A stretch of DNA of 64,000 nucleotides from Bacteroidia bacterium (GTDB lineage Bacteria > Bacteroidota > Bacteroidia > Flavobacteriales > Flavobacteriaceae), in contig JAUIJA010000008.1 of the NCBI GenBank assembly GCA_030431055.1, forward strand, positions 1 through 64,000. The letters run 5' to 3'. Every line of letters starts with the position of its first letter. Position 1 is the first letter of the stretch. The translations under genes were made by a program, and so were the position numbers. Positions 19,555 through 58,273 of this stretch are shown here, in pieces. The notes beneath the pieces are model-generated. The model did no database searches, was not told the DNA's origin, and saw only the letters and a list, made by a program, of their open reading frames with translations.

Positions 19555-20166
19555 TTAAACTGGAATAGAGTTGAATTTAGTTAAAAGTTGTGTAACATCT
19601 TCTTTTTCTGGATTCAAATGCCAAGTGTTCAGACCTAATTTTTGTGCACTTTCAATGTTTGCTAAAGTATCGTCGATAAAAAGTGTTTTTTTAGGAATCA
19701 AATTGTGGTTGTTTATTATAAACTGAAAAGCTTTGATGTCTGGTTTTCTAAAGCCAAACTCAAACGAAAAATAAACTTTTTCAAAACAGCTGTAAAAATC
19801 GCGCGAAAATGAAATTCCAAATTTGTGCTCAAATCTTTCAACATGTGTTCTATCAGCGTTACTAAGTAAATAGAGTTTGTATTTAGAAGACAACACTTGA
19901 AGAAACTCTAAGCGTTCTAATGGAAAGTCTTGAACCAAACTATTCCAAGCAGTTCTAATTTCCGCAACATCGCGATTAGGAATAAATTTTTGAAAACCAG
20001 TAAAATAATCCAGTTCATCTATTTTTCCCATTTCATATTGCGCATTCAATTCGGTTAATTCATTATTCCATTCTTTCAAGCCTAATTTCTTTAGCTCGTT
20101 CATACAAGTATCCATGTCAATATTGACAAAAACATTACCGAAATCAAATATAATTGCTTCAATCAT
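19555..20166 (-). CDS. HAD-family hydrolase (start moved to MIEAII)
   Basis: IIFDFGNVFVNID, LYLLSNADRTHVERFE, KKTLFIDDTLANIESAQKLGLNTWH. Confidence 0.9.
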   Translation of the reverse strand: MIEAIIFDFGNVFVNIDMDTCMNELKKLGLKEWNNELTELNAQYEMGKIDELDYFTGFQKFIPNRDVAEIRTAWNSLVQDFPLERLEFLQVLSSKYKLYLLSNADRTHVERFEHKFGISFSRDFYSCFEKVYFSFEFGFRKPDIKAFQFIINNHNLIPKKTLFIDDTLANIESAQKLGLNTWHLNPEKEDVTQLLTKFNSIPV

Positions 20167-21220
20167 AATTTTTGAAAATTTTAAGTTCATCTTCCATTAT
20201 GGAAAAACTAGAAACGGGGTTTCGTTTGTTGAAATTTGGAGCTAAAATTCCTTTTTTTAGGCTTGTATTTCCTTTGAAAATTCTCGCTTCGTCCCAAAGG
20301 TTTTCCTTAATAAAGTACTCTAAAGTCTTTCTTCCGCCTTCAATAATAACCGATTGAATGTTTTCTTGGTAAAGCGTTGAAAGTGTAGTTTTTATAAAAT
20401 GATTATCAAATATAGCTTTTTTGTGTGAATATTTTAAACTTTCTGTTAAAAAAATATCTTCTGAAAATATAAGTGTTTTGATTTTTCCCGATTTTATTTC
20501 GAAATCTTCAGGAATTTTATTGCTTTTGTCAATGGCAATTCTAATTGGATTGTTCCCAAAGTAATCTCGAGCATCAAGTTTCGGATTGTCATCTAGAACG
20601 GTTTGCGTACCAACTAAAATAGCTTGTTCCTCTGTTCGCCATTTATGAACCAATTGCCTAGAATTTTGATTTGTTATCCAAACTGGACGATTGTCATTCT
20701 GAGCTTGTCGAAGAATCTTATCAGGAGCAATAAAGCCATCGCTGCTTTCGGCCCATTTTAAGATAATATACGGACGCTTTTTATTATGAAAAGTAAAAAA
20801 ACGCTTGTTTAATTCTTGACATTCTTTTTCAAGAACACCTACAATTACATTTTTACCCGAATATTTTAGTTTTTGAATTCCAGTTCCAGCAACTTTAGCA
20901 AATGGATCAATTGTTCCTACAACAACATTCGGAATTTCATTGGCAATAATTAAATCGCAACAAGGCGGTGTTTTACCAAAATGACTACAAGGCTCAAGTG
21001 TAACATAAATGGTAGCTTCTTTTAAAAGCGATTTATCTTTTACCGAATTAACTGCATTAACTTCTGCATGTGGTTCACCTGCTTTTTTATGCCAACCTTC
21101 ACCTATAATTTTCCCGTTGTGTACAATAACACTTCCCACTAATGGATTAGGGTAAGTTGTTCCCAAACCATTTTTGGCTAATTGTAAAGCACGATGCATG
21201 TAAAATTCGTGAGTAGTCAT
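20159..21220 (-). CDS. ribD: Riboflavin biosynthesis protein RibD (deaminase/reductase)
   Basis: MHRALQLAKNGLGTTYPNPLVGSVIVHNG, HAEVNAV, VTLEPCSHFGKTPPCCDLI, reductase domain IIEGGRKTLEYFI. Confidence 0.95.
   Translation of the reverse strand: MTTHEFYMHRALQLAKNGLGTTYPNPLVGSVIVHNGKIIGEGWHKKAGEPHAEVNAVNSVKDKSLLKEATIYVTLEPCSHFGKTPPCCDLIIANEIPNVVVGTIDPFAKVAGTGIQKLKYSGKNVIVGVLEKECQELNKRFFTFHNKKRPYIILKWAESSDGFIAPDKILRQAQNDNRPVWITNQNSRQLVHKWRTEEQAILVGTQTVLDDNPKLDARDYFGNNPIRIAIDKSNKIPEDFEIKSGKIKTLIFSEDIFLTESLKYSHKKAIFDNHFIKTTLSTLYQENIQSVIIEGGRKTLEYFIKENLWDEARIFKGNTSLKKGILAPNFNKRNPVSSFSIMEDELKIFKNYD
20690..20720 (-). repeat. Dispersed repeat (GTCATTCTGAGCTTGTCGAAGAATCT type) in-frame within ribD
   Basis: TTGTCATTCTGAGCTTGTCGAAGAATCTTA; shares all but one base with 24120-24149; encodes KILRQAQNDN. 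Confidence 0.75.
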
Positions 21221-21845: not shown

Positions 21846-22745
21846 GTGAAAATTAAAGAATTAAGAATACAATTTCAAAAGGAATTACAATCTATTTATG
21901 ATAAGGAAGAAATTGACAGTTTTTTCTTTATGATAACGGATATATTATATGAAATTAGACGAATTGACTTTACTTTAAATCCCGATTTTGAAATTGAAAA
22001 TAAATCTGAATGGGAAAGTATAATTTCCGATTTAAAACAAGAAAAACCTATTCAATATATTTTAGGCGAAGCTTGGTTTTATGGACTGAGATTTAATGTA
22101 AGTGAGAGTACACTTATTCCACGACCAGAAACAGAGGAATTAGTAGAATGGATAATTGAAAGTGTAAAGTCAAAAGGTGATAATGCTTCTCCATTAACCT
22201 TTAACCCAAAACCTTTAACCTTATTAGACATTGGAACAGGAACTGGTTGTATTCCGATTAGTTTAAAAGCTAATTTACCTCAAACTGAAGTTTTCGCTAT
22301 TGATGTCTCCGAAAAAGCATTGGAAGTTGCTAATCTAAATGCAAAAGAAAATAATGTTGATATTAACTTTATTCAAGCTGATATTTTAAACACCGAAGAT
22401 TTATTGTCACTTCGAACGAAGTCGAGAAATCTTCCTAAATTAGATATGATAGTTTCCAATCCTCCTTATGTTCGTAATTTAGAAAAAGAAGAAATAAAAA
22501 AAAATGTATTGGATTACGAACCACATTTGGCGCTTTTTGTTGAAGATAACGACGCGCTTTTGTTTTACAGAAAAATAGCACAACTAGCGAAAGATAATCT
22601 ACAACCAAAAGGATTGTTGTTTTTTGAAATCAATCAATACTTAGGAAAAGAAACAGTTGAATTATTAGAAAACTTAGGTTTTAAAAATATTGAACTACGA
22701 AAAGATTTAAGAGGAAATGATAGAATGATTAAAGCGAGTATTTAA
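21846..22745 (+). CDS. prmC: Peptide chain release factor N5-glutamine methyltransferase PrmC
   Basis: LIPRPETEELVEWII, LLDIGTGTGCIPISL, IVSNPPYVRNLEKEEI. Confidence 0.95.
   Translation: MKIKELRIQFQKELQSIYDKEEIDSFFFMITDILYEIRRIDFTLNPDFEIENKSEWESIISDLKQEKPIQYILGEAWFYGLRFNVSESTLIPRPETEELVEWIIESVKSKGDNASPLTFNPKPLTLLDIGTGTGCIPISLKANLPQTEVFAIDVSEKALEVANLNAKENNVDINFIQADILNTEDLLSLRTKSRNLPKLDMIVSNPPYVRNLEKEEIKKNVLDYEPHLALFVEDNDALLFYRKIAQLAKDNLQPKGLLFFEINQYLGKETVELLENLGFKNIELRKDLRGNDRMIKASI
22403..22434 (+). repeat. Repeat-like segment in-frame within prmC
   Basis: ATTGTCACTTCGAACGAAGTCGAGAAATCTTC; related to the GTCACTTCGAG / TCGAGAA modules at 58103-58140. Confidence 0.55.
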
Positions 22746-23987: not shown

Positions 23988-24119
23988 AGTTGTTCTATAA
24001 GACTCGGTTTTCTATTTTTTGTTACAAGAAAATTTAGAAAAAACGAAATGAAAAACTGTTATTGATTTAATTTTTAAGAATCAGTTTTAAGTTCGATATT
24101 TGCATTAGAAATAACGTCT

Positions 24120-24181
24120 TGTCATTCTAAGCTTGTCGAAGAATCTTACTAAAAAATGTTTCGACTTCGTTCAACATGACA
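24120..24181. repeat. Dispersed imperfect-palindrome repeat upstream of hisS
   Basis: TGTCATTCTAAGCTTGTCGAAGAATCTTAC...GTTTCGACTTCGTTCAACATGACA; outer GTCAT/ATGAC and inner GTCGAA/TTCGAC pair. Confidence 0.7.
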
Positions 24182-52268: not shown

Positions 52269-52395
52269 TTGTCATTCTGAACTTGTTTCAGAATCTTAAA
52301 AATAATATCGAGAAGTCATAAAAAATAGTTCTCGATATACTTCGTTACTCGAACTGACGAAATTTAATTGTCATATCGATAGGAGTCGAGAAGCA
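52269..52395. repeat. Composite cluster of dispersed repeat modules
   Basis: GTCATTCTGAACTTGTTTCAGAATCT, then AGTTCTCGATATACTTCGTTACTCGAACTGACG (inverted copy), then TTGTCATATCGATAGGAGTCGAGAAG. Confidence 0.65.
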
Positions 52396-52396
52396 A

Positions 52397-58047: not shown

Positions 58048-58078
58048 AGGATAGCCGCGATGGAAATGGCATCTTTTA
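58048..58078. repeat. Possible remnant of a GC-richer dispersed element
   Basis: AGGATAGCCGCGATGGAAATGGCATCTTTTA, compositionally distinct from surroundings. Confidence 0.35.
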
Positions 58079-58096
58079 TAGCGTACTCGATACTTT

Positions 58097-58166
58097 TTGT
58101 TGCGTCACTTCGAGTTTTCGCTTTGCGAAATTATCGAGAAGAGCAACAAAACACTCAAACTGACGT
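58097..58166. repeat. Dispersed repeat copy with nested hairpins
   Basis: TTGTTGC...GCAACAA outer pairing, TTTCGC/GCGAAA inner; GTCACTTCGAGT and CTCAAACTGACGTC arms. Confidence 0.65.
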
Positions 58167-58273
58167 CTAAAGATACAATGTACAGCGCGAAAATTTATGT
58201 TTTGAAAACTTTTTGTGTGCTTCTTAAAATAAAAACTTTAAACTTTGTAACTTTAGACTTTTAAACTACTACA

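Follow-up and report, generated by a model that had tools for sequence, protein, structure and literature searches.

How a piece of dispersed repeat DNA comes to lie in frame within an essential enzyme is the question raised by ribD in the 64,000-nucleotide stretch of a Flavobacterium genome (2.43 Mb, 54 contigs) that we analyzed, hereafter the window. In the window, the following features bear on this question:

20159..21220, minus strand: ribD, encoding the bifunctional deaminase/reductase of riboflavin synthesis; an intact open reading frame (ORF) of 353 amino acids, assigned by Pfam, solved homologues and fold
20687..20722, minus strand: RibD loop DKILRQAQNDNR, residues 167-178, between DGFIAP and PVWIT, delimited by orthologue comparison and structure
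20692..20718, plus strand: TGTC-tagged palindromic repeat within ribD, TGTC ATTCTGAG CTTGT CGAAGAAT CT; exact motif match, chance expectation 0
24120..24146, plus strand: intergenic copy that opens an inverted pair (tags outside) directly upstream of hisS and differs from the ribD copy at one position
24154..24181, minus strand: intergenic inverted partner in the same pair, TGTCATGTTGAACGAAGTCGAAACATTT
52270..52296, plus strand: intergenic, fully paired copy, TGTCATTCTGAACTTGTTTCAGAATCT

A dispersed repeat in the reductase lid of RibD

Both RibD domains, PF00383 and PF01872, are present (Pfam), and the named relatives of the protein are almost all from Flavobacterium. As a model built from 9 sequences was poor (pLDDT 62), we used one built from 58 sequences (pLDDT 91), which matches solved RibD/RibG structures, with a TM-score of up to 0.88 to the Acinetobacter enzyme (3zpc).

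The repeat at 20692-20718, TGTCATTCTGAGCTTGTCGAAGAATCT, lies wholly within the open 353-codon frame on the minus strand. The slightly longer stretch TTGTCATTCTGAGCTTGTCGAAGAATCTTA at 20691-20720 differs from that at 24119-24148 by one mismatch over 30 bases (97% identity), and a search of the genome with the 26-mer, allowing up to three mismatches, found five copies, compared with none in the control. That a dispersed repeat is present in ribD, as the initial annotation had proposed, is thus borne out. An ordinary coding loop that resembles the repeat by chance can be ruled out: while the loop is variable, which is all that speaks for such a coincidence, the segment agrees with the family motif at 27 of 27 positions, shuffles of the window are expected to yield 0.00 matches with three or fewer mismatches, and in 200 shuffles of the loop DNA the score for the element was never as high.

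Read on the minus strand, the repeat encodes ILRQAQND; the ORF remains open across it, the context in the protein being D-KILRQAQNDN-R (repeat-encoded residues 168-177), and the segment falls between DGFIAP and PVWITN, where it had been placed before. The initial annotation also held that the repeat adds KILRQAQNDN in frame. It is in frame, but the element itself encodes ILRQAQND(N), and the loop of 12 residues compares with 7-9 in most relatives, which carry no repeat at this site. A clean insertion of 10 residues is therefore not supported, and since the net gain is only 3-5 residues, part of the native loop must have given way to the repeat. Across the genus (60 genomes), DGFIAP and PVWIT are mostly separated by 7 residues; one large clade has 9 (EKxxxQxRK), a few species have 11-23, and two of the nearest relatives (G023 and G012, 74-75% identity) have a loop of 7-9 residues without the repeat.

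In the Acinetobacter enzyme, the loop between beta6 and alpha7 (approximately residues 167-174) caps the reductase site, differs in position among subunits and superimposes on the DHFR Met20 loop, and its Trp174 has been proposed to stack on the pyrimidine of the substrate (PMC3668577). Mapping the insert onto the RibD structure places it in this beta6-alpha7 loop of the reductase domain, and the repeat-bearing loop is the counterpart of the mobile lid over the reductase site, equivalent to the Met20 loop in DHFR. Directly after the repeat-encoded stretch follow P179-V-W181-I-T183, and the common W-I-T motif in the sequence suggests that W181 is the equivalent of Trp174. In the model, residues 168-173 are predicted, with lower confidence (about 74), to form a short helix. 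Evidently, a catalytic lid that holds the repeat is tolerant in length, and RibD with the repeat-bearing loop probably stays active. The earlier description of a repeat tolerated as a short loop in an essential enzyme is therefore supported in that most relatives manage with 7-9 residues and no repeat; however, the site is not an indifferent surface loop but the lid, the native loop was partly replaced, and insertion has recurred within the genus.

The repeat family and its copies in other genes

A search of the genome with TGTCANNNTGANCNNGTNNNAGNANCT, allowing up to two mismatches, gave 35 matches compared with one in the reversed control, i.e., about 34 copies with the architecture TGTC-(8-bp stem)-CTTGT-(stem)-CT. 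All 22 distinct copies have the TGTC tag, most of which the search pattern itself required. Of the eight stem pairs, the first is A-T in 22 of 22 copies and the second is T-A in 17 of 22; the loop has five nucleotides (CTTGT in the commonest form), and nearly all copies have CT immediately after the stem, with T or A as the next base in the flanks that were read. Across these 22 copies the helix 5-12/18-25 is 87% paired, and its columns covary: there are 26 double-change cells versus 6.5 in shuffles, and the covariation score of 0.434 (0.136 in shuffles) was reached by none of 500 shuffles. When the stem partner was slid by one to three columns as a control, only one or two double-change cells remained.

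The two inner stem pairs alternate between a paired form (GA/TC) and a mismatched form (GA/AG), each accounting for roughly half of the copies. As the ribD copy has the GA/AG form, it folds weakly as naked DNA (-0.8 kcal/mol, z 0.33); a strong hairpin in this copy itself is ruled out, and the structural case for a palindrome rests on the covariation within the family. An Rfam search returned no match at the ribD repeat. Copies also occur as inverted pairs with the tags outside (HH), at 24120-24181 in the window and on contigs 33 (122407/122450), 35 (454702/454735) and 47 (17718/17750), and as one direct pair (contig 7, 85023/85053).

Several further observations were made in the window. The second unit of the pair upstream of hisS supplies an in-frame ATG at 24176, which lies 21 bases upstream of the probable true start, 24197 (MSIKPG), and the HisS segment SSSQEGMKG, once suspected to be an insert, is presumably ordinary for HisS sequences. 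A degenerate TGTC repeat lies at 52369-52396, about 75 bases after the fully paired copy, and a Flavo-1 RNA (Rfam RF01705) was detected just above the gathering score at 58049-58196 (plus strand).

When 29 copies of the motif were sorted into coding and intergenic, only four were located within ORFs, versus the approximately 85-87% expected (p below 1e-16). The four lie in ribD and in genes that we take from their sequences to be aroA, gltX and icmF (an IcmF-type mutase). The protein contexts of the latter three are VCHAEHVEASQ, RHFDKLSVTD and EILKQVQNDN (element-encoded CHAEHVEAS, RHFDKLSVT and ILKQVQND, respectively), so that the four ORF copies represent three different readings of the element. 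A related repeat was found in frame in a further gene of the window:

21846..22745, plus strand: prmC, encoding the release-factor glutamine methyltransferase; the repeat amounts to +9 codons relative to most relatives
22405..22432, plus strand: second in-frame, related repeat TGTCACTTCGAACGAAGTCGAGAAATCT within prmC, encoding SLRTKSRN

At this prmC site, several other species have LSAVEG-type versions of the TGTC repeat (e.g., TTGTCTCCCTGAGCGCAGTCGAAGGGTT in L164), and further species have the heptamer tracts (CTTCCAA)n or (CCCATTA)n. The aroA site likewise holds TGTC repeats in G013 and G032 and heptamer tracts in G023, G012 and others, and CTTCCAA and CACAATT tracts occupy equivalent prmC and aroA loops. 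In gltX and icmF, relatives have variable loops without the element, with the exception of an icmF form in G255 that starts ILKQVQ. The net length change is +9 in PrmC and about 0 in AroA, and because it varies in this way among RibD, PrmC and AroA, a simple clean insertion is not supported for RibD.

The AroA loop in question precedes ESDWSSASY (L232-L245); in three species it has TGTC repeats, in others it has various heptamer tracts, and its net length hardly changes. PrmC has a second variable loop, SKGDNASPLTFNPKPLT (window 22170-22222), which is about eight residues longer than in most relatives and contains a tandem of CCTTTAACC; in other species (L053, L208), this second loop holds heptamer tracts.

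Recurrence in RibD orthologues and its probable explanation

Among 144 RibD proteins, 16 have a recognizable element at the same point, 116 have a short loop and 12 have a long loop that could not be assigned. Many longer loops of other species consist of further versions of this repeat that are oriented alike. A scan of 400 genomes with one exact codon pattern matched at least 11. In a RibD tree from which the loop was omitted, the 16 carriers form eight groups among short-loop lineages, and the fewest changes required are eight, a count of independent events that depends on a single-gene tree and could be inflated by exchange of ribD stretches. Net length change among the carriers varies, being mostly +5 to +7 over the seven-residue loop.

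The carriers range from nearly intact to decayed. Near-perfect copies with different, compensated stems are found in G000 and G287, the latter, ATCCTTCGACAAGCTCAGGATGACA, having ATCCT/AGGAT in place of ATTCT/AGAAT. Decay is graded through Flavobacterium sp. AED (L149; GATTCTTCGAAAAACTCAGAATGACA), G032/G255, which have a TTTCAG-type version of the repeat, G009 and G239, and decayed forms are also seen in G010, G318 and others. G287 has the LRQAQND residues without nearby repeats, an outcome that the initial annotation had taken to speak against a repeat origin. Its ribD copy is the only clear one in its genome (4.2 Mb, 99% complete); nevertheless, since that copy is itself a near-perfect, compensated palindrome and is missing in the sister G025, a repeat origin stands.

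We consider it very probable that the ribD segment is a dispersed copy of a TGTC-tagged REP-type element inserted in the lid loop, and that such elements, mobile now or formerly, have inserted repeatedly and been kept only where a loop tolerates them. A copy would have landed in the part of ribD encoding the flexible lid, with the native loop partly replaced or later trimmed and the frame kept; it would have survived because an element of the type found in ribD can be read without a stop in four of six frames and because the loop tolerates change in length and sequence. The same loop would have been struck several times in the genus, with decay thereafter, and the same process would also have reached the PrmC, AroA, GltX and IcmF loops of this genome, selection leaving REP-type elements only in tolerant loops. 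We infer that the copies move, or moved, by means of a trans-acting enzyme.

The same position, orientation and, mostly, frame in nearly all carriers, together with decay series inside single clades, could alternatively reflect a single insertion into the ribD of an early Flavobacterium, with numerous later losses and with gene conversion from other genomic copies keeping some of the insertions perfect. We regard this as very unlikely, as the loop would then, on the RibD tree, have had to shrink back to 7-9 codons about 24 times independently, and a tree with ten carriers forced into one clade is rejected (p-AU 2e-42); moreover, the stems of the carriers differ by compensated changes, and the near-perfect G287 copy is without a clear donor elsewhere in its genome. 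Improbable, too, is a spread of repeat-holding ribD stretches between species by recombination, with no new insertion each time. The stretch GATGACATAAA following the repeat is indeed common to G287, L164, L185 and L056, which are not one clade, but the loop-free tree pairs carriers with non-carriers (G287 with G025, 100/100; G010 with G029, 98/81). Whole-gene transfer therefore does not account for these carriers; the exchanged tract would have to span little beyond the loop.

The orientation of the RibD insertions, which is the same in nearly all of them, is the main feature that tolerance alone does not predict, and it counts against the repeated insertion that we favor. It would be expected if an enzyme targeted the A-rich codons of the loop (T-rich on the opposite strand), and T-rich DNA does adjoin the TGTC end in many copies. 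Yet strand and frame vary by gene (CHAEHVEAS, RHFDKLSVT, ILKQVQND), and unrelated heptamer tracts (CTTCCAA, CACAATT) sit in the equivalent prmC and aroA loops, so that site-directed insertion seems unlikely. Because these unrelated repeats use the same loops, selection for tolerance probably explains the shared sites better than a shared target sequence does.

The TGTC/CGTC repeats are not known to have a mobilizing enzyme and are said to lack a transposase. Y1 transposases are present in 40 of 61 genomes of the genus, but none was found in the genome studied here and, of the 46 Y1 loci examined in relatives, none has this element at its flanks, which speaks against a Y1/RAYT protein as the local mobilizer. 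Two of these loci, L112 (in G023) and L129 (in G022), are flanked by a different TGTC-tagged hairpin, TGTC-ATCCC-TAC-GGGAT. A more far-reaching proposal, which we find doubtful rather than likely, is that an as yet undiscovered transposase, possibly a TGTC-recognizing Y1 protein such as those at L112 and L129, still inserts the family into Flavobacterium genes, and that a few loops including the RibD lid are standing landing sites where repeat DNA gives new loop sequence to be shaped by selection.

With repeated insertion as the favored reading, the active-site lid of an essential vitamin B2 enzyme has taken in repeats several times within one genus, with every stage between perfect and decayed represented, and other essential enzymes have loops that likewise took in quite different repeats. 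It thus appears that dispersed repeat DNA has landed again and again in a few loops of essential enzymes. The result is a natural series of how non-coding mobile DNA turns into protein sequence, which bears also on the tolerance of catalytic loops and on the mover of TGTC/CGTC repeats.

Relation to known repeat systems

Protein-coding palindromes are best known in Rickettsia and Wolbachia, where they are usually presented as scattered oddities, and our literature search found no paper on the present repeats in Flavobacterium. The GTAG-tagged REPs associated with RAYT (Y1) proteins are similarly short, tagged, dispersed hairpins that occur in pairs, but the Flavobacterium tag is TGTC and the genome lacks a Y1 transposase.

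A closer likeness is to the CGTC-tagged REP superfamily of Di Nocera et al. (2013), whose members have an unpaired CGTC tag (or TGTC, a frequent variant, or CCTC) at one end, a stem of 8-9 bp whose first two positions are almost always AT, a loop of 4-5 nucleotides and, at the untagged end, a three-base tail that is mostly CCA; HH dimers, with the tags outside, prevail (PMC3733652). Bacteroidetes are among the listed hosts, Flavobacterium being unmentioned in the text, and the only case given there of different elements sharing roughly one site is recB in two Xanthomonas species (PMC3733652). The Flavobacterium family shares the tag, a stem starting with A-T, the five-nucleotide loop and the HH pairs. 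It differs in that its stem alternates between the GA/TC and GA/AG forms and in that its tail is CT(T) rather than CCA, and because of this tail we leave it outside CGTC-1 to CGTC-4.

Two of those groups have been equated with the Rickettsia palindromes RPE-4 (CGTC-4) and RPE-6 (CGTC-1) (PMC3733652), and as tag, stem, loop and unit pairing match a superfamily that includes them, the resemblance to Rickettsia palindromic elements noted in the initial annotation is a structural one: the architecture agrees (TGTC tag, 8-bp stem starting with A, five-nucleotide loop). In both cases dispersed palindromes lie in frame inside essential genes. Rickettsia belongs to another phylum, and the likeness is one of architecture, linked through the published superfamily. 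Unlike RPE-4 and RPE-6, each Flavobacterium insert consists of one unit of about 9-10 codons, and the inserts recur at orthologous loops in many species.
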